64,000 nt of DNA from Cyanobacteria bacterium FACHB-502 (GTDB lineage Bacteria; Cyanobacteriota; Cyanobacteriia; Elainellales; Elainellaceae): contig JACJNZ010000022.1 in the NCBI GenBank assembly GCA_014695325.1, positions 62,001-126,000 on the forward strand, in the 5' to 3' direction. The stretch's first letter is position 1, and each line of letters starts with the position of its first letter. A program made the translations under genes and the position numbers. Shown in pieces: positions 16,739 to 41,536 of this stretch. Under the pieces are notes generated by a model, which saw only the letters and a list, made by a program, of their open reading frames with translations, was not told the origin of the DNA and made no database searches.

Positions 16739-16740
16739 AA

Positions 16741-26470: not shown

Positions 26471-26478
26471 TGTTATAC

Positions 26479-27232
26479 GGCGTTGCATAATTAGAGTATG
26501 AATTAGGGTTGGTTTTCATGCAATGTCCGGAGTGCGGCTCGACTCACATTCGTAAAAACGGCATCAAGAAGGGTAAACAAAATCACATCTGTGTCGATTG
26601 CAAGCGTCAATTTGTTGATCGCTATGAAGCCCACAAAGGCTACAGTGACGAAGTGAAACGGGAGTGCCTCAAACTGTACGTCAATGGCATGGGATTCCGT
26701 GCGATTGAGCGTGTTAAAGGAGTTCATCACACCACAATCATCACTTGGGTCAAACAAGTCGGGGAACGGTTGCCTGATGCCTAGGAACCAGAATCAACGC
26801 CCCAAGTCGCGGAACTTGATGAATTAGAAACCTTTATTGGCTCAAAAAAACAAGATTTGGCTCTGGACAGTGGTTGACCACTTCCAAGCAGGAATTTTAG
26901 GTTGGAGGTTGGGTGACCACAGTGCTGAAACGTTCCGACCCCTCTGGGCGATTGCGAAGCAATGGAGTTGTTATTTCTACGTGACTGATGGATGGAAGGT
27001 GTATCCCCAGTTTATTGACGCAGGCGACCAAATTGTGAGCAAGACGTATATGACCAGAATTGAAGGTGAAAACACAAGGTTGCGACATTATCTGGCGCGA
27101 TTGCATCGCAAAACGTTGTGCTATTCCAAGTCAGTAGAAATGCTGGCACACTCAATTCGGTTGTTACAGCACTATCTCAAGTTCCACGATGTTCCGGTGC
27201 CTTGTTGAGTCATACCCTTAATAAGCAACGCC
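26479..27232 (+). mobile_element. IS1-family insertion sequence with 8-bp target duplication
   Basis: This is a 754-bp element. The left end starts GGCGTTGCATAATTAGAGTA and the right end, read inward, starts GGCGTTGCTTATTAAGGGTA. The first eight bases are identical and the similarity continues over about 23 bp. It is flanked on both sides by TGTTATAC (26471-26478 and 27233-27240), an exact 8-bp target duplication as expected for IS1. The length is typical. The intact duplication points to a fairly recent insertion, although the transposase gene is already disrupted. Confidence 0.93.
26509..27208 (+). pseudogene. IS1-family transposase, disrupted by a stop and a frame change
   Basis: The first part (26509-26784) has the InsA-like zinc finger CPECGSTHIRKNGIKKGKQ with CVDCKRQF, and a helix-turn-helix GFRAIERVKGVHHTTIITWV. 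It ends at a TAG after LPDA, but the same frame continues sensibly (TPQVAELDELETFIGSKK) to a run of seven A (26844-26850). From there the next frame carries the DDE part: NKIWLWTVVDHFQAGILGWR, FYVTDGWKVY, MTRIEGENTRLRHYLARLHR and SKSVEMLAHSIRLLQHYL. Joining needs readthrough of the TAG and a +1 shift at A7. IS1 normally uses a -1 shift at an A-rich heptamer, so this copy is probably inactive. Confidence 0.9.
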
Positions 27233-27319
27233 TGTTATACAATCCTCTAGATTTGCAGTGTCAATCTAGGAAGGAGAGTTTGAGGCAAAATAAAGATAAG
27301 CTCTCTAGATTTTTGAGCT

Positions 27320-28249
27320 CTACAAATCTTGATATGTCAATTGTGCATTTGCCCAATCTGTTTCTTCTAGAAATTGGGCAAAGGTGGTAAGAAGCCCGGG
27401 AAATGCTTCTCGTAAACGGAGAACATCCGCTTGATAGCCTTGCTTTCGATACCACTGAATTAAATCGAACAACGATTTGCGAAATAGAAGTAGGAAAACC
27501 CAGGGAGAGATTTCCTTGTAAATTACAGGACTTCCCTGTGCTCTCGAAAATGCCTCTGCCATTTGTTTAGGGGTTAATACGTCCCCAGCCAGTTCAATGG
27601 CTTGCCCCACATACTGAGAACGGTGCTTCATCACATGGGCAGCCACTCGTCCCATATCTTTTGTTGTAATCAGATGCAGCGGCTTATCGGGTTGAACTGC
27701 AAAGGGAAAAGATCCTTTAAGAATAGACGGTCGGGTGTATTGCTTCCAAAACTCTTCCATAAATAGGCAAGCTCGCAGCATTGTTGTAGGTAAGTTCGCT
27801 TGCTTTAGAATGTGCTCGACTTGATGCTTCTGCTCAATGTGGGGAATGCCAGAATTGCGATCGACTCCTCCCGCAGAATTATAGACAAAATGTCTAATAT
27901 TGGCTTGCCTAGCAGCTTGTGCAACTCGCTCTGCCCTTGCAATTTCTTGTGAGTCAGGCTTGGCAGAATCTGCAGCAGTTCCATGGCAGTAAACGGCTGA
28001 AACCCCTGTAAAGGCTGCTTTTAATGAAGACTCATCATCGAGATCCGCTTCAATTAGCTCAACACCGCTGTTATGCAATTTCAACAGGGAAGGACGCTCA
28101 AGGTCAACTTTACGAGTTACAGCCCGCAGATCAGTCACATTTTGTTCAAGCAATCCTTTGACTGCATTGCTGCCCGTTCTTCCAGTTACCCCTATCAATA
28201 ACACTTTACCGATTGCTGTCCCTGCAGCATCAGACTTTGAAGCGTTCAT
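27320..28249 (-). CDS. NmrA-like NAD(P)-binding protein (atypical SDR)
   Basis: This 309-residue protein has the N-terminal motif VLLIGVTGRTGSNAVKGLL (GxxGxxG dinucleotide-binding loop), AVTRK at the cofactor-phosphate site, and YNSAGGVDRNSGIPHIEQKH in the position of the atypical SDR active site. NmrA-like proteins are redox-sensing regulators or NAD(P)H-dependent reductases such as quinone or isoflavone reductases; the exact role is unknown. The C-terminus is long and hydrophobic in part (SPWVFLLLFRKSLFDLI). The gene sits between two co-oriented IS701 fragments, which suggests it arrived with, or was trapped by, mobile elements. Confidence 0.85.
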   Translation of the reverse strand: MNASKSDAAGTAIGKVLLIGVTGRTGSNAVKGLLEQNVTDLRAVTRKVDLERPSLLKLHNSGVELIEADLDDESSLKAAFTGVSAVYCHGTAADSAKPDSQEIARAERVAQAARQANIRHFVYNSAGGVDRNSGIPHIEQKHQVEHILKQANLPTTMLRACLFMEEFWKQYTRPSILKGSFPFAVQPDKPLHLITTKDMGRVAAHVMKHRSQYVGQAIELAGDVLTPKQMAEAFSRAQGSPVIYKEISPWVFLLLFRKSLFDLIQWYRKQGYQADVLRLREAFPGLLTTFAQFLEETDWANAQLTYQDL

Positions 28250-28450
28250 CTTCGCACACCCTCCAATGCTCTATAACCCAGTTTAGTCCTTGAGAAAAAG
28301 CTGTTCCAGGGAAATGGCATCAGAGACAATGCGGTGAGGAAATGATGCAAACTTTGAGGATCCTCGAGCCCCACTGCTATGGTAATGGCAGGCAGAGATT
28401 TACGTTTGATGTCTGAGATTAGCCCCAAGTGCAAGAGTTTGAAGGCCTCA
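28246..28450 (-). pseudogene. IS701-type transposase N-terminal remnant
   Basis: The minus strand reads SDIKRKSLPAITIAVGLEDP then QSLHHFLT, which matches the N-terminal part of cyanobacterial IS701-type transposases (typical: DRKSIPAIAKAVGL, QGLHHFL). After this the frame degenerates (a PWNSF stretch in place of the usual SPW motif). It ends at the NmrA start region. With the C-terminal fragment at 25994-26470 on the same strand it could represent two halves of one former element. Confidence 0.7.
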
Positions 28451-28563
28451 AAGCTCTACACTTCGGGAAATAACGATTGAAACAATTGGCAGCACTCATT
28501 GAAAAAGGTCAAGGTTGGACGGACTTCACTAGGGGAGGCACAGGGCCTATCTCCGCCCGAGGA

Positions 28564-29409
28564 CTATGCCGTCTCATCTTTCGACATAGACGCTCGCCCC
28601 TCCAGCAACAAAGGAAGCAATAAAAGTTCTACCCCAATCAGCAGCACAACAGAGATGCCAAACACGATCGTTCCAATGGCATTGAGCGAAGGGCTAAGAT
28701 TGGCACCCAGGAAGGTATAGATTGACACGGGTAGCGTGGGTTCAAACCCTGATACAAACCAGGCGATGATAAATTCATCAAAGGAAAAAGTAAATGCTAG
28801 CAACCAGGCTCCCGCAATTCCCGGAATCGCCCAGGGTAGAATCACGCGGTAAAGTGCCTGCCACTCATTCGCGCCCAAATTCCAAGCGGCTTCTTCGATA
28901 TCTTTTGGCATTTGAGCCAGGCGTAGACTGACTAGCGCGATCGCGGTCGGCATCAGAATGACGACATGAGTAAGGAAGACGCTCAGGATTTGCCCTTGCA
29001 GATTGAGACGAGATAGTAGCCCCAGAAATGCGACCCCCAGGATTAAGGGCGGCACCAGAATCGGCACAATGAATAGCGTAGACAAGAAGCTCTTGCCCGG
29101 AAAGTCAAATCGATTCAGGGCGTAGGCAGCAAAGAAGCCAATCGCCGTTGCGGCTGCCGCTGCCAGAGGTGACACAATCAGGCTGCGCTGAAGGGCTTGC
29201 AGCAATCGACCATCCGTCAGCAATTCCTGATACCACTGCATTGTCCATCCTGCCCAGGGCAAAGTTGGAAAACGGGCATCTTCAAAGGAAAACGCGATCA
29301 GGGTGACAATTGGCAGCATCAGAAAAATAAATCCTATTAGCAGGTAGCCCCATCCCGCGATCGCCAGCCCTAAGTCAATGCCCCGTTTCTGCGGTGCGCT
29401 CATGTTCAC
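28564..29409 (-). CDS. potC: ABC transporter permease, spermidine/putrescine type (PotC-like)
   Basis: This 281-residue inner-membrane protein has six hydrophobic segments. It carries the permease EAA loop (EEAAWNLGANEWQALYRVIL then PWAIPGI) that contacts the ATPase. PotC-type permeases pair with a PotB-type partner in polyamine/opine/thiamine-family importers (PepT family). It is the last gene of a six-gene minus-strand operon and overlaps the preceding permease by 4 bp (ATGA). The transported compound is inferred from neighbours to be a cationic or guanidino compound. The pot symbol reflects homology only. Confidence 0.88.
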   Translation of the reverse strand: MNMSAPQKRGIDLGLAIAGWGYLLIGFIFLMLPIVTLIAFSFEDARFPTLPWAGWTMQWYQELLTDGRLLQALQRSLIVSPLAAAAATAIGFFAAYALNRFDFPGKSFLSTLFIVPILVPPLILGVAFLGLLSRLNLQGQILSVFLTHVVILMPTAIALVSLRLAQMPKDIEEAAWNLGANEWQALYRVILPWAIPGIAGAWLLAFTFSFDEFIIAWFVSGFEPTLPVSIYTFLGANLSPSLNAIGTIVFGISVVLLIGVELLLLPLLLEGRASMSKDETA

Positions 29410-30341
29410 TGCTCCGATTCAGCCAGTTTAAATCCAGTTACCAAAATCACAATCATGATGCCAATCAGGAGGGTTGCCAGGGCAGAAGTGCGCGGCAAAT
29501 TGGTAGAAGCCGCATACTCGTTCAGGATGATGGTCGAGAATAGAGGGAATTTTCCCAAAATCGATTGACCTGTACCGCCGCCCAGAATCGTACCCGATAG
29601 CACATCCCCCAGGCTGATAATCAAACCAAAAACTGCGCTGTAAACAATTCCCGGCTTGCTGAGCGGCAGCACGACCCGCCAGAAGGTTTGCCACTGGGTT
29701 GCTCCTAAATTACGAGCCGCTCCCATTAAGGTGCGATCGACGTTTCGCAGCACCAGATAGAGAATCAAAATCATAATCGGGGCAAGGTAGTGCAGCAAAC
29801 CAATGCGAGTGCCCCATTGAGTAAACATGATTTGCAATGGCTCTTTGATCCAGTTCAGTTGCACAAGCAGCGAATTGAGCAAGCCGTTATTGTTGAGGAT
29901 AGTTTGCCAGGCGTAAAGGCGGAGAATATAGCTTGTCCAGAACGGCGTAATTGCCAGTACCAAAAGCAATCTCTGAAGTCGTTCGGGGACTAGAAACACT
30001 AATGCCATCGCAAAGGGATAGCACAGCAGAATACCGACTGCCGCTGTGGTAAAAGCGACCCAGAGCGACTGGGCGATCGCATAGCCATAGCGCGACCGTG
30101 TAAAGAATTGACTGAAAATATCCAGGTAATTCGACAGAGAAAAGCCAGGAACTGCTCGATAATTTTCGACGCTCCAAAATCCAATCCAGATGAGAAAGAG
30201 CAGGGGCAGCAGGAAAAGAATACTGTCGTAAATAACGGCAGGTGCAAGACAAAAATATTTCAGGAGGCTGGTTTCTTGAGGCAGCCAGCGGGCGCGCGAT
30301 CGCCGAGGGGAAATCGGAAGTTGCTTGGTCACAATCGTCAT
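29406..30341 (-). CDS. potB: ABC transporter permease, spermidine/putrescine type (PotB-like)
   Basis: This 311-residue membrane protein has about six transmembrane helices (the first at about residues 30-57, FCLAPAVIYDSILFLLPLLF). Its EAA loop is GAARNLGATQWQTFWRVVLP then LSKPGI. Together with the next gene it forms the heterodimeric channel of the importer. It starts 15 bp after the ATPase gene ends and overlaps the next permease gene by 4 bp, so translation is probably coupled. Confidence 0.88.
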   Translation of the reverse strand: MTIVTKQLPISPRRSRARWLPQETSLLKYFCLAPAVIYDSILFLLPLLFLIWIGFWSVENYRAVPGFSLSNYLDIFSQFFTRSRYGYAIAQSLWVAFTTAAVGILLCYPFAMALVFLVPERLQRLLLVLAITPFWTSYILRLYAWQTILNNNGLLNSLLVQLNWIKEPLQIMFTQWGTRIGLLHYLAPIMILILYLVLRNVDRTLMGAARNLGATQWQTFWRVVLPLSKPGIVYSAVFGLIISLGDVLSGTILGGGTGQSILGKFPLFSTIILNEYAASTNLPRTSALATLLIGIMIVILVTGFKLAESEQ

Positions 30342-30356
30342 TTCCTCACTATTTCC

Positions 30357-31598
30357 TCACTGAATCCGTTCGCCTAGTAAAACGGTGTCCTGAGTTTTCC
30401 AGACGAGTTGCAATCTGGAATTAATCGGAACTGCCAGAGTGTGATCGAGGGCTTCTTGACGAATCATTCGCACTTCGTAGCCCGTGTCGGTTTCCAGAAA
30501 ATAGATCACCTGCGATCCCATAAATTCAAAGCCTCGCAGTGTCGCATCAATTTTGTTTTCTAGTCTGTTTTCCACTGAACCCTCTGTGGAAGCGAGCGCA
30601 ACCCGTTCAGCCGGAACCACGATCGTCACCCGGTCGCCCACCTGGTGCGGCTGCTCTCGCCAGAGTGCCTGCATCGTGCCTTGCGGACAGCGAACCGTTA
30701 CCCGATCTGGACTGACACTGATCACCTCACCGTCAAACAGATTGTTGTTTCCTACAAACTCGGCAACAAAGTGGGTTGCTGGACGGCTGTAAATTTCCGC
30801 AGGCGTTCCCACCTGTTCAATCCTGCCCCCATTCATCACCACGACGCGATCTGCCATCGAAAACGCTTCGTTCTGATTGTGAGTGACATAAATAAACGAA
30901 ATGCCCAACGACTGCTGGAGCCGCTTTAGTTCACCCTGCATCCGCACCCGTAGATGGGGGTCGAGGGCACTCATCGGTTCATCGAGCAGCAGAATTTTGG
31001 GTTCGGTGATCAGGGCACGGGCGATCGCCACGCGCTGTTTTTGCCCGCCGCTCAATTGGCTAATCCGGCGATCGAGCAACGGTTCCAGGTGCATCATTGC
31101 AGCAATTTCTCGCACTTTGCGCTTGACCTCTGCTTTGCGATGAGTCATCAACGTCAGCCCAAAGGCAATGTTTTGCTGCACGTTAAGGTGGGGAAACAAA
31201 GCAAAGCTCTGCCAAACCATTGGTGTATTGCGCTGATGCACCGAAAGAGCAGTAATGTCTTTCTCCTGAAGTCGAATCTCACCCGATGTCATTCCTTCCA
31301 GCCCGGCAATGATTCGCAGGAGTGTTGTTTTCCCGCACCCGCTCGGACCCATAATCGCGATGAACTCCCCTGCCTTGACCCTCAAATCGATGTTCTCCAG
31401 CACCTTGAGCGAGCCAAATTGCTTTGAGACTTCGCAAATTTCTAAATCGTGAGCAGTCGAAGCCGTTGCGCTCTCCGTTAGCGATGAGCCAAGGTTTGCC
31501 CTCGCAGATGGGTTCGATTGCAGCTCGGTCACAGAAGAATGGTTCATAGGAATAAAGATTTGATCGGATGAGGGAATTGGGGAGAAATCAGACATCAA
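30357..31598 (-). CDS. potA: ABC transporter ATP-binding protein (PotA-like)
   Basis: This 413-residue ATPase has Walker A GPSGCGKTT (about 84-92), the ABC signature LSGGQKQ (182-188), Walker B ILLLDEP (202-208) and the H-loop YVTHNQNEA. The last ~110 residues form a TOBE-type regulatory domain. An unusual ~50-residue Ser/Pro-rich N-terminal extension precedes the nucleotide-binding domain; a shorter start such as MNHSSVTEL (residue 18) is possible. It lies 28 bp downstream of the binding-protein gene. It energises uptake by the two permeases encoded next. Confidence 0.92.
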   Translation of the reverse strand: MMSDFSPIPSSDQIFIPMNHSSVTELQSNPSARANLGSSLTESATASTAHDLEICEVSKQFGSLKVLENIDLRVKAGEFIAIMGPSGCGKTTLLRIIAGLEGMTSGEIRLQEKDITALSVHQRNTPMVWQSFALFPHLNVQQNIAFGLTLMTHRKAEVKRKVREIAAMMHLEPLLDRRISQLSGGQKQRVAIARALITEPKILLLDEPMSALDPHLRVRMQGELKRLQQSLGISFIYVTHNQNEAFSMADRVVVMNGGRIEQVGTPAEIYSRPATHFVAEFVGNNNLFDGEVISVSPDRVTVRCPQGTMQALWREQPHQVGDRVTIVVPAERVALASTEGSVENRLENKIDATLRGFEFMGSQVIYFLETDTGYEVRMIRQEALDHTLAVPINSRLQLVWKTQDTVLLGERIQ

Positions 31599-31626
31599 CC
31601 CGTCGCTTCAGCAAGCTTGCTCTCCA

Positions 31627-32832
31627 CTAGCTGGTCTTAAATTCGTTGTAGAGGTCTTGCCAAACCTTTTCGGGCTGATTGACGGGCAGCTGACGGGCAC
31701 GGGTGCGCTCTAGTTGCACCTCTACAAGCGTCTTGTTGGGATTGGCTTTATCTGGAACGTACCCCAGCAGTTGCTTCTCCGCATCGCTCATAAACTGAGG
31801 GGCTTTCAGGTTCGGTGCTATGCCCTTGTAAGCTTTCGCGTTTGCTAGCTTGGCTTGAGTTTCGGGCAGCGTCATGTACTGCACCCACTTCAGTGCGAGT
31901 TCCTTATTTTTGCTTGCAGAGCAGAGCGTTGCGCCTTCGCTCCAGCGAATCGATCCTTCTTGGGGAACGACTGCCGCAAAGTTTGTTTTGCCGTCTGCGA
32001 TCGCATTTTGAATCAACCAGTCTCCCACGGGGCCTGCAATTACGCTTTCGTTGATAAAGGCATTGGTAATGTCTTGAATATTAGGCGTAATCAGCGCCAC
32101 GTTCGGTTTGACTTTAATCAGCCAGTCCTTCACTTGCTGCAACTGCTGCTCTGTCAACGCATAGGGATTTGGGTTGTCGGGAAAGAGTGCAAGACTGGCG
32201 TTGCCCATGTTGGGAAGATACCAGTCAAAAAAGGCAACCTTACCCTTTAGTTTCGGGTTGGTGAGAAAATTCCAGCTAGTGACTTCTTCGGGCTGAATAT
32301 ATTTGCTGTTGTAGGCAATGCCATAGTTGCCAAAGCGAGTTCCCACTGCCATCATTTGATCTTCCAGAAAGAAGCCAGGAAATTTTTGATAGCCAGCCGT
32401 AAAGTTTTGCAGATCGGGAAAATCAGCCGGGTTAAGGGAATCGATCGCGCCTAGCTGCATGAGTTTGGTGACATATTCCCCATCGGAGATAATGCCATCA
32501 AATGTGCCGGGCGGAGACTGATTAAAGAACTGAAGCATTTGTTCGCCACCCACATAGGTTTTGAACTCAACCTTGACGTTATTGTCCTGCTCGAACTTCC
32601 CAATAATCTCCGGCTCGTCATAGCCTGCCCAGGACAAAATCCGAAGCGTGCCGCCGCCACCCGACGCAGCAGGGCTGGCTCCTGTCGAAGCTTGTTCCTG
32701 AGCGTTCGCACAGCTTGTTAGCTTGGTGGTTGCTGCGGTGAGCGTTGCCAGAGACGCATGCTGGATAAACTTACGGCGCGTAATCGACTGCAAAAAAGAG
32801 GCGTTAGAAGAATCCGAGTTTCTGTAGTTCAT
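31627..32832 (-). CDS. potD: ABC transporter substrate-binding lipoprotein (PotD-like, Tat signal)
   Basis: This is a periplasmic binding protein of about 401 residues in the spermidine/putrescine family (GTLRILSWAGYDEPEIIGKF, VEFKTYVGGEQMLQFF). The N-terminus has a twin-arginine motif TRRKFIQ, a hydrophobic stretch and a lipobox-like LTSC, so export by Tat and lipid anchoring are likely. MNYRNSD at 32832 is preferred over the upstream start at 32868 because it gives a standard Tat n-region length. The ligand pocket cannot be assigned by eye. Placement directly after two amidohydrolase genes suggests that their substrate is imported here. Confidence 0.9.
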   Translation of the reverse strand: MNYRNSDSSNASFLQSITRRKFIQHASLATLTAATTKLTSCANAQEQASTGASPAASGGGGTLRILSWAGYDEPEIIGKFEQDNNVKVEFKTYVGGEQMLQFFNQSPPGTFDGIISDGEYVTKLMQLGAIDSLNPADFPDLQNFTAGYQKFPGFFLEDQMMAVGTRFGNYGIAYNSKYIQPEEVTSWNFLTNPKLKGKVAFFDWYLPNMGNASLALFPDNPNPYALTEQQLQQVKDWLIKVKPNVALITPNIQDITNAFINESVIAGPVGDWLIQNAIADGKTNFAAVVPQEGSIRWSEGATLCSASKNKELALKWVQYMTLPETQAKLANAKAYKGIAPNLKAPQFMSDAEKQLLGYVPDKANPNKTLVEVQLERTRARQLPVNQPEKVWQDLYNEFKTS

Positions 32833-32902
32833 AGCAGTGCTAATGAGAGGAAGGATGAAATCGAACAAAACTTGTTGAACAACTTGCGGTGTTTTCTAGG
32901 GC

Positions 32903-34459
32903 TCAGGAAGATAGGGGTAAAATCACTTCGGCAACATTTGCAGGCGAAGGACTTTGATCGCGATAGGCCGTATTCAATCGCTGAATCGGTAATGGCTGAC
33001 TCAGCATTTTTTGAAATGCCGTATCCATCATCGGACGCAGCGTTTGGCTTTGTTGATGCCACTGGTCGCGATAGCTGCGATAGGCTGCCAGATGCTCTCC
33101 CAGTTCTGCCAAAAGGTCGGACTCATTGACCGTCAAAACCTGTCCATCTTTCACAATCAGTTGTCCGTTCACATAAACCTGACGAATCGATCGCCCCCGC
33201 TCCGAATACACCAGATGAATGGGAAGTTGATTGCGCGGGGTAAAGGTCAGGGAGTTGAGGTCATACAGCACAAAATCGGCTTTCATTCCCGGCGCGATCG
33301 CCCCGATCTGGTCTTGCAGCAGTGTGGATCTCGCGCCGCCCCTGGTTGCCCATTTGAGCACATCAGCTGCCCTGGGATAAAACTTGCGATCGCCATCGGT
33401 TGCAGAATGTACTAAGCCCGCCATTTTGATTACATCAAACAGGTTAAAGCTGTCCATGCCATCAGTCCCCAGCGCAAGATTGACTCCGGCTGCCATCAAC
33501 TCGCGAATCGGCGCAATTCCACTGCACAAACGATGATTACTGACGACGTTATGAACCACCGTTGCTCCGGCTTCTGCCACTAAATCAATATCCGCCTGCG
33601 ATAGCCAGACTCCGTGCGCGATCGTTGTTCGGTGCGTCAAAATCCCGTGTCGTTTTGCATAGGCAACGACTGATTCTCCGTAAAATTCTGCGCCGGTCAC
33701 TGCCTGCATTCGGGTTTCCAGCAGGTGCGTGTGAATGGGCACGTTGAATTCTTCTGACAGGGCGGCAATCTGATGCATCAGTTCAGGGGTAACTCGCTGC
33801 GATGCGGAGGGAGCCAGGACGGTGGTAATCAGGTCTGCCTGTCTGTGCCAGTCTCGGTAGAGTTGCCGGAAGACGGATTCCCACTCGGCTGGAGTACAGG
33901 TACTTACTGAAATAAAGCTTTGCTTCTGCTCATCGCTCAGGTGGTCAGCCAGATAAGGAACCGTTTCGTGAAGCGGCTTGTTGATGGCGTGAACCGATAA
34001 ACTTGCCCGCACCCCTAAATCAACGTATGCCTGTGCCACTGCCCCAAACATTTCGGGGGGAGTATAGGGCAATGCGTAGATGTCGTCTTGCATTGTGGTT
34101 GTGCCATGCTTCACCGCTTCCAGGGCTGCGACCATTGTGCAGAGGTAATGCAGGCGGGGGTTTAGTCGCTCGTTAGGGGGCAGATACAGCATCCACTGCT
34201 CTAAAGGCAATGCTTCATAGCCACACTTTTCTAAAACTCCTACGGTCGTATGGGTGTGAGCATCCACAAAGCCAGGAATTAACAAGAGATCAGTCGCATC
34301 GACAATTTGATCGGCAGTAACGTCTAGCTCTGGGGCAATTTGGATAATACGCTCGCCTTCAATGAGCAGATCCACACAGCAAGGCGATAAATCCAAACTG
34401 CCATCCGGTTGTTGAACAAAGGGAAGAACAGTTGCGCGACGAATGAGTTTACGAAACAT
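32903..34459 (-). CDS. ATZ/TRZ-type amidohydrolase 1
   Basis: This 518-residue metal-dependent hydrolase belongs to the amidohydrolase superfamily (chlorohydrolase/deaminase branch, the SsnA/TrzA/guanine-deaminase-like group). Metal-site motifs are VDAHTHTT (HxH), PIHTHLLETR, IAHGVWLS, SNHRLCSG and LGTDGMDSFN. The end has GAIAPGMKADFVLYDL and YVNGQLIVKDGQV, typical of the family. Members deaminate or hydrolyse ring C-N bonds in purines, pterins, triazines or cyclic guanidines. The gene begins 5 bp after its paralogue, with which it shares long identical stretches (VVAYAKRHGILTHRT). The actual substrate is unknown. Confidence 0.88.
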   Translation of the reverse strand: MFRKLIRRATVLPFVQQPDGSLDLSPCCVDLLIEGERIIQIAPELDVTADQIVDATDLLLIPGFVDAHTHTTVGVLEKCGYEALPLEQWMLYLPPNERLNPRLHYLCTMVAALEAVKHGTTTMQDDIYALPYTPPEMFGAVAQAYVDLGVRASLSVHAINKPLHETVPYLADHLSDEQKQSFISVSTCTPAEWESVFRQLYRDWHRQADLITTVLAPSASQRVTPELMHQIAALSEEFNVPIHTHLLETRMQAVTGAEFYGESVVAYAKRHGILTHRTTIAHGVWLSQADIDLVAEAGATVVHNVVSNHRLCSGIAPIRELMAAGVNLALGTDGMDSFNLFDVIKMAGLVHSATDGDRKFYPRAADVLKWATRGGARSTLLQDQIGAIAPGMKADFVLYDLNSLTFTPRNQLPIHLVYSERGRSIRQVYVNGQLIVKDGQVLTVNESDLLAELGEHLAAYRSYRDQWHQQSQTLRPMMDTAFQKMLSQPLPIQRLNTAYRDQSPSPANVAEVILPLSS

Positions 34460-34464
34460 AGTGC

Positions 34465-36000
34465 CTACGAAACATAGTGCAGGGGACGACTAAAACGATG
34501 AATGGATAAAGACTGGCTAACAGCGGTTGACAGCATTTTTTCAACAGCAGGACGAATCCGCTCTGCCTGCTGCAAAATCTGCTTACGATGAACGGCGTAT
34601 TCGGGCAAACGATCCTGCAACTCTGCCACGATATCGGCTTCGTTGACCGTTAACACCCGTCCCTGATCAACCACTAATTGACCATTGATAAAGACTTTGC
34701 GAATCGAACTGCCATTCTCGGCATACACTAGGTGAATCGGTAGTTGATAACGGGGAGTGAAACTGAGGGTATTGAGATCGTAGAGAACCAGATCGGCTTT
34801 CATTCCCGGTGCGATCGCCCCAATCTCGTTGTGCAGCAGGGCAGATCTGGCTCCTCCATAGGTTGCCCATTTCAATATATCTGCGGCTTTCGGGTAGCGA
34901 TCGTAGGAAGTATCCATCGCCGAATGCACCAGCCCTGCGGCTTTAATTACATCAAATAGATTAAAGGAATCATTGGAACTCATGCCGTCTGATCCCAGCG
35001 CAATGTCGACTCCCGCATCCATTAATTCTCGAATTGGTGCAATGCCACTGCACAGGCGATGATTGCTGACCACGTTGTGAATCACCGTTGCTCCGGCTTC
35101 TGCAATCAGTTCAATGTCTTGTGTGGATAGCCAGACTCCGTGGGCGATCGCCGTTCGATGCGTCAAGATTCCGTGTCGCTTTGCATAGGCAACGACTGAT
35201 TCGCCATACAGTTCCGGTCCGGTCATTGCCTGGGTTTTGGTTTCCAGCAGATGCGTGTGAATGGGCACATCGTATTCTTCAGATAGGGTGGCAATCCGGT
35301 GCATCAAATCAGGCGTGACGCGCTGCGATGCAGAAGGAGCCAAAACAGTTGTCACCAATCCTCGATAGCCCTGCCATTTTTGGTAAACCTGACGAAACAA
35401 ATCAACCCACGCATCATCAGAAAGTCCCTGAGCCGCTTCTAGATCCTGCTTCACGTCGGCGGGCAGGAAGTCGCTCAAATAAGGAACAGTGTGGTGCAGC
35501 GGTTGGTTGATTGTGTGGAGCGAGAGACTGACTCGCATCCCGACATCAACATAGGCTTGGGCAACCGCATCAAAAATTTCTGGCGTAACATAGGGCAGCT
35601 CCAGCAAATCATCCTGAATTGTGGTTCCCCCATATTTCACCATCTCCATTGCACCGATTAGCGTGCGGAGGTAGCACAAACGCGCATCAAGGTGCTGGGA
35701 TTGCAATGGCGGGTAGGTATAAAGCATCCATAGCTCCAGGGGCGATGCTTCATGGTTACCCTTCTCCAAAATTTCCATTGAGTGAGCATGAGCATTGACA
35801 AAGCCAGGAATCAAAAGGTGATTTGCTGCATCAATCACTGAGGCGGACGGCGGCGCAGATTCAATGGCAGGAGCAACCTGAGCAATGCGATCGCCCTCGA
35901 TCAACACATCAGCAATCTGAGGCTCTAAGTTCAGGGAACCGTTCGCTTGTCGCGTGAAGGGAAGAACGGTCGCATTTTTAATTAAAACAGTATTTTCCAT
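34465..36000 (-). CDS. ATZ/TRZ-type amidohydrolase 2 (paralogue)
   Basis: This is the first gene of the six-gene minus-strand operon, about 511 residues. It is clearly paralogous to the next gene. Metal motifs are VNAHAHSM (HxH), IHTHLLETK, IAHGVWLS, SNHRLCSG and LGSDGMSSNDSFN. MENTVLIKN at 36000 is preferred; the frame runs to a GTG at 36027, but a ribosome-binding AAGGA lies about 11 nt before 36000. Differences around the first metal motif (HAHSMEILEKGN versus HTHTTVGVLEKCG) and an inserted SSN suggest distinct specificities, for example successive steps or related substrates. Confidence 0.88.
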   Translation of the reverse strand: MENTVLIKNATVLPFTRQANGSLNLEPQIADVLIEGDRIAQVAPAIESAPPSASVIDAANHLLIPGFVNAHAHSMEILEKGNHEASPLELWMLYTYPPLQSQHLDARLCYLRTLIGAMEMVKYGGTTIQDDLLELPYVTPEIFDAVAQAYVDVGMRVSLSLHTINQPLHHTVPYLSDFLPADVKQDLEAAQGLSDDAWVDLFRQVYQKWQGYRGLVTTVLAPSASQRVTPDLMHRIATLSEEYDVPIHTHLLETKTQAMTGPELYGESVVAYAKRHGILTHRTAIAHGVWLSTQDIELIAEAGATVIHNVVSNHRLCSGIAPIRELMDAGVDIALGSDGMSSNDSFNLFDVIKAAGLVHSAMDTSYDRYPKAADILKWATYGGARSALLHNEIGAIAPGMKADLVLYDLNTLSFTPRYQLPIHLVYAENGSSIRKVFINGQLVVDQGRVLTVNEADIVAELQDRLPEYAVHRKQILQQAERIRPAVEKMLSTAVSQSLSIHRFSRPLHYVS

Positions 36001-36460
36001 TATCCTGATCCTTACGAAGGAGAACACAGAATCGAAGCAAATGGTTTAATCGTCGAAGAATACGGTTCATGATGCACTTGAGAGAAAAGATGAATCAATC
36101 CATAGATGCTGAAGAAGAATCAGGTGGAAGTGAGATTTGGAATGAAACCGCATTGCTGCATTAGCAAGTGCCAAACTGAAGACCAAGCTGTTTCAGCCAT
36201 TTTCGGTAAGCAATCGACATTTTGTCGCAGGGAAAATGGAACTCCTGCTGCAAATTGAGCGGCAGCTGAGCGATCGAGGCTGAAGTTTGAATTGAAAAAA
36301 CTGCTAAGAATTTAACGAATCACTAAAATCTTAATTGCCTTAGCCTCACTGTAAAGAAAGGAGCAACTCAAAAAAGTTATTTATAATACAACCGTAACTC
36401 CCTGAACTAGAGTTGCTATTTTGGTAATTAATACATCGAAAGTTGTGTTTTTCAAAGGCC
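36001..36460. promoter_or_regulatory. Divergent promoter region between the uptake/amidohydrolase operon and the Lrp/AsnC gene
   Basis: About 460 bp that must carry the promoters of both directions. The stretch before the regulator gene is AT-rich (TTATTTATAATACAACCG near 36379). I could not define an exact Lrp-type operator. No guanidine-, glycine- or polyamine-riboswitch-like structure was recognised. No ORF is supported. Confidence 0.4.
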
Positions 36461-36940
36461 ATGACTCCAACCAATTCCGTTCCTCCAGCATCGATCGCCC
36501 TCGACGATCTCGATCGCGCGATTATCGGGCTGCTTAAAACCGATGGGCGCATGTCTTTTGCTGAAGTTTCTAAACGGCTGAATTTGCCGGAAGCAACTGC
36601 CCGCTATCGGGTGCAGCGACTCTTGCAGTCCAAGATCGTCAAGATTCACGCTACGCCAAATCCAGAGCATCTGGGTACACCTCGCGTCATGATTGTTCAA
36701 CTCTTTGTGGAAAACGGCAAGATTGATGCAGTTGCAGCCGCACTGGTTGAAATCGACGAAGTTCAATTCGTTGCGGTTACTGCGGGTCATCACAATATCG
36801 TGGTTGATGTTTTCTTTGGAACGCACGATGAGCTGCTCAATTTTTATGCAAAGCTTCACGAAATTCCAGGCGTGATTCGCTATGAGTCGCAGGTCGTGAT
36901 GAAGCTACTAAAAGCTGAGTACAAATATGTAATGAGCTAG
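36461..36940 (+). CDS. Lrp/AsnC-family transcriptional regulator
   Basis: This is a protein of about 159 residues with an N-terminal winged HTH (LDDLDRAIIGLLKTDGRMSF, then AEVSKRLNLPEATARYRVQRL) and a C-terminal RAM-type sensing domain (AVTAGHHNIVVDVFFG, then IPGVIRYESQVVMKLLK). Such regulators bind amino acids or similar small ligands as octamers. ATG at 36461 with AAAGG 5 nt upstream is preferred over the TTG at 36443. It is divergent from the amidohydrolase/ABC operon and precedes the creatininase and ureohydrolase genes, so it is the likely local controller of both. Confidence 0.9.
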   Translation: MTPTNSVPPASIALDDLDRAIIGLLKTDGRMSFAEVSKRLNLPEATARYRVQRLLQSKIVKIHATPNPEHLGTPRVMIVQLFVENGKIDAVAAALVEIDEVQFVAVTAGHHNIVVDVFFGTHDELLNFYAKLHEIPGVIRYESQVVMKLLKAEYKYVMS

Positions 36941-37274
36941 CGTAAATGTTACTTTGCCTTCTCAAAATTGCTCAATTGCCTACTGCATAACGTTTTGGAC
37001 AACCTGTCTATCTAAAAGTCAGGAAAGCTTGATTTGTGGCAGCATCTTTTTCTTCTGCTAAGGTATTCGTAACTAAAGCAATATGTTTTTGCTAAATTCT
37101 TCATCTGAAAATGCAGAAGTATTTTTTCATTGATGAAGAAGCAAAATGAATTGTGGATTTAGTAAGATAAACTCCGATTTTGTATTGAGAGCTACATCAA
37201 CTGCGGCTTCAGTGCATTTATTCTGAACTCCAAGGCAGCAGAAAACGCAGGTCTTGCAAGATCGCTTGTTAAAA

Positions 37275-37316
37275 GGCAGAGCTAGTTAGGCAGAGTTAGT
37301 TAGGTAGAGCCAGTTA
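37275..37316. repeat. Three tandem 14-bp repeats upstream of the creatininase gene
   Basis: Three direct units follow each other without spacing: GGCAGAGCTAGTTA, GGCAGAGTTAGTTA, GGTAGAGCCAGTTA. They end 123 bp before the preferred creatininase start. They could be binding sites for a regulator (the nearby Lrp/AsnC protein is the obvious candidate) or a slippage product. The rest of the ~500-bp gap 36941-37439 holds no ORF. Confidence 0.75.
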
Positions 37317-37439
37317 GATTAAAATCGTTAACCTGCACTTTGGCTCTGTAATAGACGCGAAAAAAGACGCGAAGAATCAATACTTTCAGCGATCGTGATT
37401 TGCTGCTCAACAGAATTCTTGAAAGAAAGCGAGTCTTCT

Positions 37440-38249
37440 ATGCATCCACTAATGATGGGTTCATTGAGTTGGGTTGAGTACCAGCAGCGGCTTCAGGATG
37501 GAAATGCGATCGTCCTGATTCCCTGCGGTGCCCTGGAACAGCATGGTCCTCACTTACCGCTCGGTACGGATGCATTGCTTAGCACCGCGATCGCGCAAAG
37601 CGTGGCAGAGCAAATCAGCGGTATTGTTGCGCCAACCGTCAGCTATGGCTACAAGTCGCAGCCTAAGTCGGGCGGAGGACAGCACTTTCCAGGAACGACC
37701 AGTTTGGATGGCAACAGTCTGATCCAAATGATTCGAGATGTCGTGCGCGAACTGGCGCGACAGGGGGCAGATCAAATTGTTGTCCTGAACGGTCACTACG
37801 AAAATCAGTGGTTTCTCACCGAAGGAATTGAACTTGCCGTGCGCGATATGGGCAGTGCATCAAAACTGCGGGTGATGCGCGTCGAGTATTGGGAGTTTCT
37901 GACCGAGAACATTTTGGCTCAAGTCTTTCCAGACGGTTTTCCTGGCTTTGCGCTGGAACATGCTGCTGTGATGGAAACTTCACTGATGGCGCACTATCAT
38001 CCGAAACTCGTCAGACTCGACCTCATTCCTGACGTTCCCCCTGTGGAATTTCCAGCCTATGACGTCTACCCTCAGCGTCCAGAGTGGGTTCCTGCATCGG
38101 GCGTTCTCTCTTCTGCCAAAGCTGCCACTGCTGAAAAAGGGGCACTGATGGCAGACCATCTCACCCGAACCATTGCAGCCGCCGTTCAACGGGAGTTTCA
38201 ATTGAGTTCAGCCTTAGCTGCATCGAACGGAATGGCTGCGCTTCGCTGA
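37440..38249 (+). CDS. Creatininase-family amidohydrolase, close to true creatininase
   Basis: This protein of about 269 residues has all metal ligands of creatininase: E33, H35 and D44 in LEQHGPHLPLGTD, H119 and E121 in NGHYEN, plus E173 and H174 in FALEHAA. It shares with Pseudomonas creatininase the segments YGYKSQPKSGGG and HFPGTTSLDG, and keeps the active-site Trp in EYWEF (W151). The second active-site Trp is F170 here. The family opens cyclic amides (creatinine to creatine). ATG at 37440 is preferred over a GTG at 37395. The ureohydrolase gene follows after 51 bp, so they likely form an operon. Confidence 0.88.
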   Translation: MHPLMMGSLSWVEYQQRLQDGNAIVLIPCGALEQHGPHLPLGTDALLSTAIAQSVAEQISGIVAPTVSYGYKSQPKSGGGQHFPGTTSLDGNSLIQMIRDVVRELARQGADQIVVLNGHYENQWFLTEGIELAVRDMGSASKLRVMRVEYWEFLTENILAQVFPDGFPGFALEHAAVMETSLMAHYHPKLVRLDLIPDVPPVEFPAYDVYPQRPEWVPASGVLSSAKAATAEKGALMADHLTRTIAAAVQREFQLSSALAASNGMAALR

Positions 38250-38300
38250 ACGATTTATCCGCGCTGATTTTCTCACTTTATTCTCGATTGCCTTTTCTTC

Positions 38301-39359
38301 ATGCAGAATCCTGATATCGTTCCGATTCAGCCGATTAGCGGCACGGTTCTTCCCCGTTATGCGGGTGCCTCTACCTTTGCTCGATTGCCCGAACTGCGCG
38401 ATGTGAACCACTGCGATGTCGCGATCGTCGGTATTCCTTTTGATGCGGGGACGAGTTTTCGTCCAGGGGCGCGATTTGGACCGCAGGCAATCCGTCAAGC
38501 GTCGCGAAATCTGCGGACGCAGTATCATCCTGCCTATAACGTGGAGCCGTTTATGGTGCAGCAGGTTGCCGATGCCGGAGATATTGCCTGTAATCCATAT
38601 CATATTAATCAGGCAATCGAACAGATTGAAGCGGCTGCGACCGAACTTCTAGCACAGTGTGGGGCGATTGTGAGTTTAGGGGGAGATCATACGATCGCCT
38701 ATCCGCTGCTGAAGGCAATTAATCGACGTTACGGACCCGTTGCACTCGTTCACTTCGATGCCCATCTCGATACCTGGGACACCTACTTTGGTGCGCCCTA
38801 CACGCACGGAACCCCATTTCGCCGCGCGGCTGAAGCAGGCTTATTTTTAGACGATGCCTCAATCCATGTTGGCATTCGGGGCCCGCTCTATAGCCGCAAT
38901 GATTTGAACAAAGATAGTGAACTGGGATTCAAAATTGTCCACTGTGATGAGTTTGAAACGATCGGCATCACTGGAGTTGTCGAGCGAATTCGGGAACGGG
39001 TCGGCGATCGTCCTTTGTATTTATCCATTGATATTGATGTGCTCGATCCGGCTCATGCACCGGGCACGGGCACGCCTGAAGTTGCCGGAATGACCAGTCG
39101 CGAATTATTGGGCGTGCTACGCGGACTGGCGGGTCTTTCGGTCATTGCTGCGGACGTTGTAGAGGTTGCACCTGCATACGACCATGCAGAGATTACCTCG
39201 CTTGCCGCTGCCACAGTGGCTTACGAACTGATAAACCTGCTGGCACTCAGTCCAAAACTCAGTCCAAAACTCAGTCCAAAACTCAATCCTCAATCAAGTC
39301 AGAATAATTCGCTCTCAAGTTCCTACCAGAGCGACGAGAACGTTTTATTGAACGAGTGA
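38301..39359 (+). CDS. Agmatinase/arginase-family ureohydrolase
   Basis: This 352-residue enzyme of the ureohydrolase superfamily splits a guanidino group to urea and an amine. All metal ligands are present: H130 (LGGDHT), D153, H155 and D157 (DAHLDTWD), D244 and D246 (SIDIDVLDP), followed by [16 protein letters not shown]. The N-terminal motif [18 protein letters not shown] is typical of agmatinase/guanidinobutyrase-type members. Specificity (agmatine, guanidinobutyrate, guanidine, or creatine-like) cannot be fixed by eye. The C-terminus is extended by a repeated SPKL segment and an Asn/Ser-rich tail. It lies 51 bp after the creatininase-like gene. Confidence 0.9.
39245..39280 (+). repeat. 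In-frame 12-bp tandem repeat at the ureohydrolase C-terminus
   Basis: The unit ACTCAGTCCAAA occurs three times exactly, then degenerates (ACTCAATCC). Being a multiple of three it preserves the frame and encodes repeated SPKL. It lies after the conserved catalytic domain and looks like replication slippage in a dispensable tail. Confidence 0.85.
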
Positions 39360-39561
39360 ATGAATTGCAGAGGTTATTTGAAGCCATTTAATTAAAGATA
39401 GGGTGGTGTATTAAAGAATGCAGCGATCGCGGGAGCGGGTATCATTCGCTTACTTGGTTTTGAAGTGAAACAAGCAGTTGAGCAAGGGCATCTCTTGACC
39501 CTTACAAATCAAGCTTTGCTCTAACAATAGTCCCCAGGAACTTCCAACTTTGGGCGATCGC

Positions 39562-40278
39562 CTAAATGGTTTTAATGCAGAAATATTCCGCATTAGTTGG
39601 TGTGTTGTAATTCGCTTCAACAATCTCAAAACCTGCTCGCGTTAGCATTGCCTCGATAATCCATCCATAAGTGCTGTGTTCTTCCCGTACGTGCATCTCA
39701 AAATCTTTGGCTGTCCACCCTTCTCCAGCGGGTTTAGCAACCTGTTTAATCCAATCATTGATTGATGCTTCGTAGTCTGCGGCTGGAAAGGAGAAGATGA
39801 CATCTCGCAGATAAAACACGCCGTTCGGCTTTAACATCGCCGCAATTCTCAGGAAAGCTGCCATCTTCCAAAAATCGGGGAGAATGTGCAGTGCATTTTT
39901 AGTGACGACGAAATCGACGAATTGGTCTTGATGCTCATAGCTTAGAAAGCCTGCCTGATGAAACTTGAGCGTAGTTACGCCTGCTTTTTGTGCTTTGTTT
40001 TGAGCATTGGTGAGCATCGCCTGTGAGATATCGATCGCGTGGACAGAAGCTCCCGTCAGCGCAGCTTGAATGGCAAAATTTCCTGTGCCCGCACCTAAAT
40101 CAATAACCGTATGTTCCGCAGCAATTCCTAATCGGGTTACTAAAGCCTGTTCCTTTTCGGGTGTGCTCGATGTTTGATTGCGATCGTACACTGCAACCTG
40201 TGCAGCATCCTCAAAGTCGATGCCAGCCATAGTGGATTCATCAAAATACCAGGCAGGAAAAGTGGGCATCGGTTTCAC
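39562..40278 (-). CDS. Class I SAM-dependent methyltransferase
   Basis: This 238-residue protein has the SAM-binding motif VIDLGAGTGNFAIQA, an acidic residue after beta 2 (VHAIDISQAML) and the later FVVTKNALHILPDF motif. The N-terminus (FPAWYFDESTMAGIDFEDA) matches a group of small-molecule methyltransferases of unknown substrate. It converges on the ureohydrolase gene (about 200 bp gap), and there is no evidence that they work together. Confidence 0.85.
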   Translation of the reverse strand: MKPMPTFPAWYFDESTMAGIDFEDAAQVAVYDRNQTSSTPEKEQALVTRLGIAAEHTVIDLGAGTGNFAIQAALTGASVHAIDISQAMLTNAQNKAQKAGVTTLKFHQAGFLSYEHQDQFVDFVVTKNALHILPDFWKMAAFLRIAAMLKPNGVFYLRDVIFSFPAADYEASINDWIKQVAKPAGEGWTAKDFEMHVREEHSTYGWIIEAMLTRAGFEIVEANYNTPTNAEYFCIKTI

Positions 40279-40729
40279 CGAGTCGTAAATCGTCCCATTT
40301 CCGGCAAGGGCGAGGGACTTTGAATTTCTTTTGGTTCAATGTGGGCTGATCTGGGGTTTCTCATTCAAGATCATCTAGCCCCGATCTCCTGACTCCCGGT
40401 GAGCAGCCCGATAATGGGGAAACTGCCCCTTTCCTCCCAACCGTTGATCTGCAAAAGCGGCTCCTTTGAATACCAAAGCATCAATGAGGACAGGGATTGA
40501 GGATAGATCTCGTGGTTTTATTGGTTATTTGTCCTCAATCCGATTCAAATCCTTTTGGTTTAAATCCGGCGTTGCCGAATGCAAATACACAAAGTCACTG
40601 ATTGGAGCAGGGCGGGGAAGGGCGGAAGAATAAGGGCAGTTTTTGTGTTTACACCAGGTCACTTTAATCAATGAAGTTCAATCAGGGTCAATCCATTCAA
40701 TCGAATGAATTCAATTGAATCGATTCAGA
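40279..40729. other. Intergenic region without recognised gene
   Basis: About 450 bp between two minus-strand genes. It holds short AT-rich palindrome-like runs such as ATTCAATCGAATGAATTCAA near 40688, adjoining the 3' end of the GST-like gene. No ORF with coding character, no RNA gene and no clear terminator was recognised. Confidence 0.35.
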
Positions 40730-41536
40730 TCAATCAATGTTGATCGAGGTGGGACCCGATGAGGAACCGCTAGTTGCCCCTGCCGTTGCCGTGAGCGGAG
40801 CTTTGCGAAAATCTGCATAAAGCCGATCGCGCCAGTCCCAAAAAGGCTTGAGCAGCGGATCGTTGATTAGCTCGATCGTTCCTTTGCCTTTAATGGCGGC
40901 AGGCAATTCCAGATACGACCCGATCGGAAACTTCACGTACATGGTCATGGCTGCAACTGCAAAATCTGCCAGCGTCGGCTGATCGCCTAGCAAATAAGGC
41001 TGATCGCGCAGCATCTCGCTCAGGGATTCCAAGCTGCGGTGCATTTCTTTACGGGCAGACTTGATTGCATCAGGGCTAGCTCCTGCCCCAAACCCTACCA
41101 GATCGATCGCCTCACGCGGCACAGACTGAACTAAATTTCTCAAAAATCCGGGGGTTCCAGACGGCAGAGCCGAGGTCAAAAAGGTCGAATCCTGACCGAC
41201 TGCGCTAATCAGCAGTTTTCGAGCATTGATGCCCACCGAATCGTCTGCCCACTGTTCTAAAATCAAACACTGCGATCGCCGCTGCGGCTCGGTCGGAATC
41301 AGCGGGCGTTCGGGATATTTGCGATCGAGGTAAAACGCGATTTCTGTAGAGTCAGCAATCACCTCGTTGCCATCCTTGAGGACAGGAACCTGCCGCTGCC
41401 CCGACATCCGAAAAATGTCAAGCTGCCCAATTCCTGGGGTGATCTCGATCTTGCGATAGGCTAAGCCCTTGTAGTCCAGAATTAGCCGCACTTTTTCACA
41501 GTAATGGGATAGCTCAAACTGGTAAAGCTCCAGCAT
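40730..41536 (-). CDS. Glutathione S-transferase family protein
   Basis: This 268-residue protein has an N-terminal thioredoxin-fold domain (LYQFELSHYCEKVRLILDYK, with the conserved cis-Pro region QRQVPVLKDGNEVIADST) and an all-helical C-terminal domain (LLGDQPTLADFAVAAMTMYV). The SHYCEK segment places a Cys near the usual catalytic Ser/Tyr/Cys position. It ends in a Ser/Thr/Gly-rich tail. Roles could be detoxification or redox; the substrate is unknown. Confidence 0.88.
   Translation of the reverse strand: MLELYQFELSHYCEKVRLILDYKGLAYRKIEITPGIGQLDIFRMSGQRQVPVLKDGNEVIADSTEIAFYLDRKYPERPLIPTEPQRRSQCLILEQWADDSVGINARKLLISAVGQDSTFLTSALPSGTPGFLRNLVQSVPREAIDLVGFGAGASPDAIKSARKEMHRSLESLSEMLRDQPYLLGDQPTLADFAVAAMTMYVKFPIGSYLELPAAIKGKGTIELINDPLLKPFWDWRDRLYADFRKAPLTATAGATSGSSSGPTSINID

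Follow-up and report, generated by a model that had tools for sequence, protein, structure and literature searches.

A creatininase-like enzyme and a ureohydrolase joined to a PotDABC-like importer in a cyanobacterium: a candidate nitrogen-scavenging cluster for guanidine-bearing ring compounds

Introduction

Guanidine metabolism has been mapped largely through guanidine riboswitches, and the operons known to follow guanidine-I riboswitches encode guanidine carboxylase and allophanate hydrolase or, in Synechocystis, the nickel guanidinase GdmH, for which passages of PMC11410670 give Thr97 and Trp305 as specificity residues. The guanidino-acid hydrolases GpuA and GbuA of Pseudomonas aeruginosa carry Arg and Tyr residues whose roles are set out in parts of PMC9772407 and PMC10833137; a passage of the former also states that the human enzyme called 'agmatinase' hydrolyses guanidino acids and not agmatine, which makes 'agmatinase' labels unreliable. 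Here we describe a locus in a 64,000-nucleotide stretch of Cyanobacteria bacterium FACHB-502 (assembly GCA_014695325.1, contig JACJNZ010000022.1, positions 62,001 to 126,000; genome G000 and contig C16 in our numbering; hereafter the window), in which genes for an Lrp/AsnC-type regulator (lrp), a creatininase-like hydrolase (crn) and a ureohydrolase (ureo) stand divergent from six genes for a PotDABC-like importer and two amidohydrolases (ahA and ahB). A preliminary description of this stretch had proposed a system for the uptake and hydrolysis of a guanidino or cyclic-guanidine compound, a proposal that finds partial support: it is strengthened for the crn/ureo half and weakened for the importer/amidohydrolase half, the amidohydrolases having relatives in urate/allantoin-type clusters.

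We read the locus as a nitrogen-scavenging cluster for a guanidine-bearing ring compound, built from two modules, and put the probability of this reading at roughly 45%. In relatives of the window, a Rieske oxygenase would first oxidise a precursor; its gene has decayed in the window, and this strain would thus depend on an already oxidised substrate. Crn would then hydrolyse the amide bond of a cyclic acylguanidine, a compound with the unit O=C-N-C(=N)-N that is found in creatinine, glycocyamidine, 2-aminoimidazolones and 2-aminopyrimidinones, to give a guanidino acid. The ureohydrolase would split this acid into an amino acid and urea, from which urease would release ammonia; the genome encodes urease outside this locus, and its alpha subunit gene is present. 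The divergent operon, with its importer and two deaminase-type amidohydrolases, most likely serves the uptake and deamination of an amino-substituted heterocycle, perhaps a purine-like one. The two modules are joined in three genomes, perhaps because both serve the same or related compounds, and the joining suggests a common substrate class. Computation shows the gene content, its conservation, the division into modules, the remnant of the oxygenase, the residue patterns and the linkage of Crn relatives to riboswitches; the substrates, the order of the steps and the link between the modules are what we infer from these observations.

Results

The nine-gene order recurs in two other genomes

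A pattern-based scan of genome contigs with the creatininase-like protein as query gave 219 relatives, the best 80 of which were used (16 cyanobacterial and 64 other loci, judged by their titles), and the family sample comprised 36 genomes including that of the window, an order-level search having returned the same 36. The complete nine-gene order recurs in two other genomes, Phormidium tenue FACHB-886 (L006, the same locus as L102 of G401) and cyanobacterium FACHB-471 (L009, the same locus as L104 of G408), and this recurrence is more than chance. Clustering of the two halves elsewhere, set beforehand as a test, was thus seen in two further genomes; the conserved order that had been expected holds in both, but each half is also found alone.

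Among the 36 family genomes, crn is present in nine, six of them of the Rieske/lrp type described below, ureohydrolase orthologues (87-100% identity) in seven, and amidohydrolases at 60% identity or more in seven. An AhA/AhB-type gene occurs in four of the six genomes with a Rieske/lrp-type crn against 7/36 overall (hypergeometric P 0.008, or 0.05 with all nine crn genomes, neither value corrected for shared descent), and crn is followed by ureo in five of the six fetched relatives with the Rieske-lrp-crn arrangement. A phylum-wide sample of 386, which holds few relatives, gave crn at E<=1e-30 in two cases and AhA at E<=1e-90 in one.

Most non-cyanobacterial relatives of Crn tested lie behind guanidine-I riboswitches

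The strongest new support for the earlier proposal lies outside the window and outside the cyanobacteria, namely in riboswitch operons, which together with the guanidino-acid-hydrolase residues of the ureohydrolase favour the guanidino or cyclic-guanidine substrate that had been suggested for the crn/ureo half. Rfam models were run at gathering thresholds on 34 of the 80 crn loci, chosen partly for short length. A guanidine-I riboswitch (RF00442, 73.7-90.2 bits against a gathering score of 63) was found upstream of crn on the same strand in 20 of the 24 non-cyanobacterial loci tested (7/7, 11/12 and 2/5 in three batches). The distance from the end of the riboswitch to the start of crn is 2.9-4.7 kb; where a binding-protein gene was called (eight of the 20 loci), it begins 14-57 nt past the riboswitch, and the first open reading frame (ORF) called in the remaining 12 begins about 1.0-1.2 kb downstream. 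Four of the non-cyanobacterial loci gave no riboswitch: in L019 a distance of 1.7 kb separates crn from the locus end, and in L073, L081 and L083 the neighbourhood is a different one.

The riboswitch-crn loci (L022, L024, L034, L050, L054, L057, L071 and 13 further ones) come from Pseudomonas, Burkholderiales and others, and their operons hold an FA_desaturase-type enzyme, SDR proteins and creatininase-like and BiuH-like enzymes. L071 was annotated protein by protein. Its genes encode a binding protein of the SsuA/NMT1 type, an FA_desaturase-type enzyme, a pair of SDRs, an EamA transporter and Crn, and further a BiuH-like isochorismatase, which at 278 bits falls short of the BiuH cut-off (370), a protein resembling lactonases, and subunits of an importer. 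The genes immediately before the riboswitch of L054 encode urea carboxylase (1588 bits against a cut-off of 1304) and allophanate hydrolase (791 against 511). A guanidine-II match is also present in L050 (68-115), and L041 carries a pair of guanidine-I riboswitches, one on each strand.

No description of these desaturase/SDR/Crn/BiuH-like riboswitch operons was found in the open papers searched, nor was any paper joining creatininase, guanidine and riboswitch in a search that left most subscription papers outside, nor any in the open literature joining cyanobacteria, creatininase, agmatinase and guanidine; a text search of the guanidine-biology review PMC12186494 gave no word starting with 'creatin'. 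The Crn clade is a lead on an unassigned group of enzymes, and it comes with a short list of candidate substrates and partner enzymes.

Partner enzymes of Crn differ between settings

Since ORF calls are on the wrong strand in many GC-rich loci, partners were counted by tblastn (E<=1e-12) within 6.5 kb of crn; the counts describe neighbourhood and not co-transcription, and are lower bounds because many contigs are cut. A biuret-hydrolase-like isochorismatase lies near crn in 59/80 loci (8/16 cyanobacterial, 51/64 other) and a ureohydrolase in 6/80 (6/16 and 0/64; that of L025 is a 45% paralogue), the two never occurring together in the 80 loci. Likewise, an FA_desaturase-type enzyme is found in 58/80 loci (3/16 cyanobacterial, 55/64 other) and a Rieske protein in 6/80 (6/16, in L006 as fragments, and 0/64), again with no locus of the 80 holding both. 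Isochorismatases of the BiuH/RutB type take off carbamoyl groups, and ureohydrolases release amidino groups in the form of urea. Given this chemistry, the swap fits a ring-opener whose product would be a ureido acid beside the one partner and a guanidino acid beside the other, and the desaturase-like enzyme would presumably act as an oxygenase.

The window's genome has a parallel cluster in L131 (G000:C55:120000-138000). It encodes an Lrp regulator at 47% and a further ureohydrolase at 46%, together with an SsuA-like binding protein and an isochorismatase of the RutB/BiuH kind that falls below both cut-offs.

The creatininase-like enzyme

The residues E34, H36, D45, H120 and E122, which we take to be the metal ligands of creatininase, are kept in Crn and in all 80 loci, as is Trp154. 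In a FastTree phylogeny the Rieske/lrp-type Crn proteins form one group of seven tips including the window (support 0.98), next to which stand L011 and L013 (support 0.88; deeper nodes are weak), both of which carry the desaturase-type enzyme and the isochorismatase. L005 (G101:C19), from another cyanobacterial family, has a 36% crn relative with Trp-His at positions 174-175, a third pattern at this site. In L013, the stretch beside crn (15482-20236) encodes a pair of Rieske proteins that match glycine-betaine monooxygenase weakly (164-165 bits against a cut-off of 670), another member of the creatininase family (31%) and, at 597 bits against a cut-off of 470, a glutamine synthetase of type III.

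The ureohydrolase resembles guanidino-acid hydrolases

Among solved structures, the window ureohydrolase matches 3-guanidinopropionase (272 bits), guanidinobutyrase (258) and proclavaminate amidinohydrolase (PAH; 250) ahead of two agmatinases (223 and 213) and guanidinase (155). The equivalent of GbuA R72, the Arg that forms a cap over the acid end of the substrate, is present in the window protein and in 7/7 orthologues, the position being Ala in two agmatinases and His in PAH, and the loop A equivalent of GpuA Tyr157 is likewise kept in the window protein and 7/7 orthologues. According to a passage of PMC10833137, a fungal GBase has a Tyr too, so this residue is not diagnostic alone. Coupled to Crn in one cyanobacterial lineage, such an enzyme would free urea from ring guanidines without a creatinase. 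The earlier remark that no creatinase (M24) is encoded holds for the nine scanned proteins, no genome-wide search having been made for one.

A Rieske oxygenase was lost from the window

A full-length Rieske gene stands divergent from lrp in L007, L008, L009, L010 and L012, and L006 has fragments only. A Rieske oxygenase belonging to the crn-ureo half has been lost in the window, where a remnant is left. Four of the 36 family genomes have an orthologue (at least 77% identity), in each case at a crn locus; G000 itself has no more than a 42% paralogue, on contig C34. The L008 protein (PF00355, PF19112) has SxtDIOX (214 bits) and SxtT (206), then NdmA (131), as its nearest solved structures; SxtDIOX and SxtT act on saxitoxin-type guanidinium compounds and NdmA is a methylxanthine demethylase.

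The other Rieske matches (n=11, 41-57% identity) have Bmp/PnrA-type importer or urate-pathway neighbours in seven cases. A Bmp/PnrA-type importer adjoins the Rieske gene in L155 (G000:C34:590000-602000; Pfam) and, by eye, similar genes do so in L159, L161, L165 and L166; in L154 its neighbours are a permease (PF02653) and an amidohydrolase (PF01979) that shares about 30% identity with AhA; and in L163 HpxO (616 bits against a cut-off of 500) is found nearby, together with HIUase and OHCU decarboxylase. Neither importer nor urate-type neighbours were seen beside the Rieske gene in L160, L162, L164 and L167. The association with Bmp/PnrA importers suggests a purine-like substrate for this cyanobacterial subfamily, and the neighbourhoods as a whole make purine-like substrates as plausible for it as guanidinium toxins. 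Because paralogues at 41-45% are spread through the family, the likeness to SxtT and NdmA may belong to the cyanobacterial subfamily in general.

The importer and the amidohydrolases

AhA and AhB fall below every listed NCBIfam equivalog cut-off, including those for 8-oxoguanine deaminase (PRK08203: 241 and 215 bits, cut-off 532) and N-ethylammeline chlorohydrolase (PRK06038: 250 and 240 bits, cut-off 609), and the PotA-like ATPase reaches 361 bits against the PotA model, below the cut-off of 482. Of the polyamine contacts of E. coli PotD (W34, Y37, D168, E171, W229, W255 and D257), the PotD-like protein keeps W34, Y37 and W255 in an alignment read by eye.

Gene calls, start codons and the upstream element

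All nine genes of the preliminary description were found at or near the positions it gave, with intact reading frames and clear Pfam matches (Table 1); gene content and families hold, but the two halves, described there as facing each other, diverge and do not converge. They do so from a common 415-nt spacer. Neighbouring genes on the minus strand (ahA-ahB-potD-potA-potB-potC) are separated by gaps of -4 to 34 nt, resembling one operon, and the gap between crn and ureo on the plus strand is 51 nt. The start of crn is most likely the ATG at 37440 rather than the GTG at 37395, as judged from an alignment in which six of seven relatives have ATG at the former position and L012 has GTG; lrp probably starts at the ATG at 36461, which is present in 8/8 aligned rows.

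Upstream of lrp, GTTRTYTNTAATAC occurs once per locus, 67-85 nt before the lrp start as aligned, in 7/7 lrp-crn loci; the pattern was derived from the alignment of these same loci and thus describes their conservation, not an independent test of it. A longer form of the element has one match in the window at up to three mismatches against 0.16 expected, and at up to one mismatch the element is absent from L013, L108, L106 and L131. The element resembles an NtcA site, but this reading was rejected: it has GTT for GTA and, counted by eye, a 27-nt gap to a TATTTT box. Such a gap is longer than that of NtcA promoters, and for both reasons we call the element operator-like only.

Just outside the left flank of the cluster, a short ORF at 26837-27208 resembles a transposase fragment by eye, and a large NTPase and a WD40-repeat protein, also recognised by eye from the translation, lie at 22339-25923.

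Table 1. Features of the locus, in coordinates of the window.
Feature	Position	Strand	Evidence
potC-like permease	28564..29409	-	PF00528 (BPD_transp_1)
potB-like permease	29406..30341	-	PF00528 (BPD_transp_1)
potA-like ATPase	30357..31598	-	PF00005 (ABC_tran) and TOBE_2 PF08402
potD-like substrate-binding protein	31627..32868	-	PF13416 (SBP_bac_8); best PDB matches Lmo0810, PotD
ahB, second amidohydrolase, 63% identity to ahA	32903..34459	-	PF01979, 168 bits
ahA, COG0402/TRZ-ATZ-type amidohydrolase	34465..36027	-	PF01979, 170 bits
Rieske oxygenase remnant, last 35 residues	36164..36268	-	tblastn, 97% identity to L008 Rieske
Conserved operator-like element GTTATTTATAATAC, upstream of lrp	36376..36389	.	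alignment of lrp-crn loci
lrp, Lrp/AsnC-type regulator	36443..36940, probable start 36461	+	PF13404, PF01037
crn, creatininase-like hydrolase	37440..38249, ORF opens 37395	+	TIGR04448, Creatininase family
ureo, ureohydrolase with guanidino-acid-hydrolase residues	38301..39359	+	PF00491 (Arginase), 325 bits

Discussion

A number of observations weigh against a two-module cluster for a guanidine-bearing ring compound. The modules separate, in that Rieske-lrp-crn-ureo occurs without the importer in L008, in L012 and in L007, whose contig is 6 kb long, and the importer with one amidohydrolase occurs without crn in L108 (potC-potB-potA-potD-ahB) and, as potD-ahB up to the end of the contig, in L106. 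L010 has crn and the Rieske gene with no ureohydrolase in the remaining 1 kb of its contig, and its genome, G386, gave no ureohydrolase match at E<=1e-70; in G411 and G389 a ureohydrolase orthologue stands alone, with no cluster neighbour and no crn. None of the 10 cyanobacterial crn loci tested (including L015 and L025) has a guanidine-I riboswitch, and Rfam at E<=1 gave no guanidine riboswitch in positions 26000-42000 of the window, so that for the cyanobacterial loci the link to guanidine is by homology only; elsewhere in their genomes, 28 of the 36 family members have such a riboswitch above threshold, G000 having two (C23 and C67). The ureohydrolase lies on its own branch outside the GpuA and GbuA groups in a small FastTree of 18 sequences, its C-terminal motif EVAPAYD-EIT is agmatinase-like, and the Arg72 and Tyr157 equivalents are also found in 5/5 paralogues (45-47% identity). 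Moreover, 65% relatives of AhB sit with urate-pathway genes in L103 and L105+L141, four of the PotD contacts are changed in the binding protein (D168W, E171P, W229G and D257E, by eye), and word searches of open papers found no assayed member of the Crn clade.

The most serious alternative, which we consider quite possible though short of even odds, is that two unrelated nitrogen-scavenging modules are chance neighbours, a purine-type importer/deaminase unit (for 8-oxoguanine- or guanine-like bases, for example) and a guanidino-acid module. It would account for the occurrence of each module without the other and for the company kept by relatives of AhB. The clusters of L103 and L105+L141 hold a HIUase-family gene, an amidase, a flavin reductase, GntR and a different importer with two binding proteins; L103 was further scanned to contain a racemase/arylmalonate-decarboxylase-type gene, and its HIUase passes the Pfam cut-off and misses that of NCBIfam (83.7, cut-off 87.45), while OHCU decarboxylase (186 bits, cut-off 96) is found in L105 only. 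Flavin reductase and GntR are common to these urate-type clusters and the PotDABC-AhB unit of L108, and the gene next to a 41% amidohydrolase relative encodes the allantoinase PuuE (494.6 bits against a cut-off of 424.6). L107 holds a third single AhB relative, which has neither importer nor urate setting. Transposase-like ORFs on the flanks of the L104 cluster, seen by eye, would also suit a chance joining. Against it stand the same joined order in three genomes, the AhA clade, which splits before all AhB and is confined to these three full clusters among the 36 family genomes, and the enrichment of AhA/AhB-type genes in genomes with a Rieske/lrp-type crn (P 0.008, uncorrected for relatedness). 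Relatives of the Rieske protein, too, stand beside Bmp/PnrA-type importers or urate genes, which means that both modules may handle related compounds. The preliminary description had named, as an example of what would speak against it, a purine/pterin deaminase together with a pure agmatinase; the amidohydrolase relatives in urate/allantoin-type clusters come close to this.

The window's genome also has a urate-type operon without ahB, L139 (G000:C67:68000-87900). It encodes two proteins of the HIUase family, an amidase, a racemase-like protein and an importer with two binding proteins, and about 21 kb from it, on the same contig, is a guanidine-I riboswitch (56157-56283).

The ring-compound reading can be extended to a general cyclic-guanidine route, an extension that we regard as unlikely. 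An oxygenase, Rieske or fatty-acid-desaturase-like, would prepare the ring, Crn would open an acylguanidine or acylurea bond, and a matching hydrolase would remove the nitrogen group, namely the ureohydrolase where the ring bears an amino group (guanidino acid to urea) and the biuret-hydrolase-like enzyme where it bears an oxo group (ureido acid). Candidate rings would include 2-aminoimidazolones and 2-aminopyrimidinones, for instance guanine and its oxidation products. If this were true, such rings would also account for the presence of the deaminases and for the urate-pathway genes beside relatives of these, and Crn of Proteobacteria would belong to a guanidine-I riboswitch pathway for which we found no description.

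True creatinine catabolism, in which creatininase would yield creatine and the ureohydrolase would replace creatinase in releasing urea and sarcosine, is improbable. Crn passes the equivalog cut-off of the NCBIfam creatininase model TIGR04448 (367.6 bits, cut-off 235) and shares 48% identity with 1j2t, a creatininase of solved structure. However, Trp174-Asp175, which we take to lie over the substrate in creatininase, is Phe-Ala in the window, and across the 80 loci position 174 is F in 69, Y in 7 and I in 4 and position 175 is A in all; the non-cyanobacterial members of the clade are tied to guanidine-I riboswitch operons; and creatine carries a methyl group on its substituted nitrogen, which the guanidino acids known as substrates of the ureohydrolase family do not. 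We rejected a plain creatinine pathway on the replacement of W174 and D175 and on the partner genes. As creatinine hydrolysis would need an assay, Crn is not classed as a creatininase here, and the equivalog-level label 'creatininase' of TIGR04448 should not be taken literally for a clade that, in most of the non-cyanobacterial loci tested, lies behind guanidine-I riboswitches with recurring partners.

Least probable of all, the uptake of agmatine or polyamines followed by an agmatinase, with the creatininase-like gene incidental, would suit the PotDABC-like importer and the NCBIfam agmatinase models that the ureohydrolase passes (PRK02190, 326 bits, cut-off 302; TIGR01230, 245, cut-off 174), but it has against it the changed PotD contacts, on which polyamine import was judged doubtful, the Arg cap, the Thr in place of the entrance residue Trp68 of E. 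coli SpeB (a weak criterion, since Trp68 varies among other agmatinase structures according to a passage of PMC8125230) and the succession of crn and ureo in five of six Rieske-lrp-crn relatives.

Comparison with known systems

Compared with the Pseudomonas creatininase (1j2t; TIGR04448), Crn shares the family, the metal ligands, Tyr121, Glu122, Trp154, Glu177, His178 and 48% identity, but differs in having Phe-Ala for Trp174-Asp175 and in that its non-cyanobacterial relatives sit in guanidine-I riboswitch operons. The ureohydrolase has GpuA and GbuA of P. aeruginosa (3nip and 3nio) as its best PDB matches and shares with them the Arg72 and Tyr157 equivalents and the metal-binding motif, whereas its separate branch, its agmatinase-like C-terminal motif and its creatininase-like partner set it apart; its match to GpuA (272 bits) is far stronger than that to GdmH (155 bits). 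The described guanidine-I riboswitch operons, with guanidine carboxylase/allophanate hydrolase or GdmH, have in common with the present system that a riboswitch of this class precedes non-cyanobacterial relatives of Crn, but positions 26000-42000 of the window are without one. SxtT, SxtDIOX and NdmA are the closest solved relatives of the L008 Rieske protein, the gene for which is a remnant in the window. Finally, urate/allantoin clusters with HpxO, HIUase, OHCU decarboxylase and PuuE include genes related to ahB and to the Rieske gene that was lost, whereas none of these four families is among the nine scanned window proteins, and the urate-type operon of G000 itself lies on another contig (L139).

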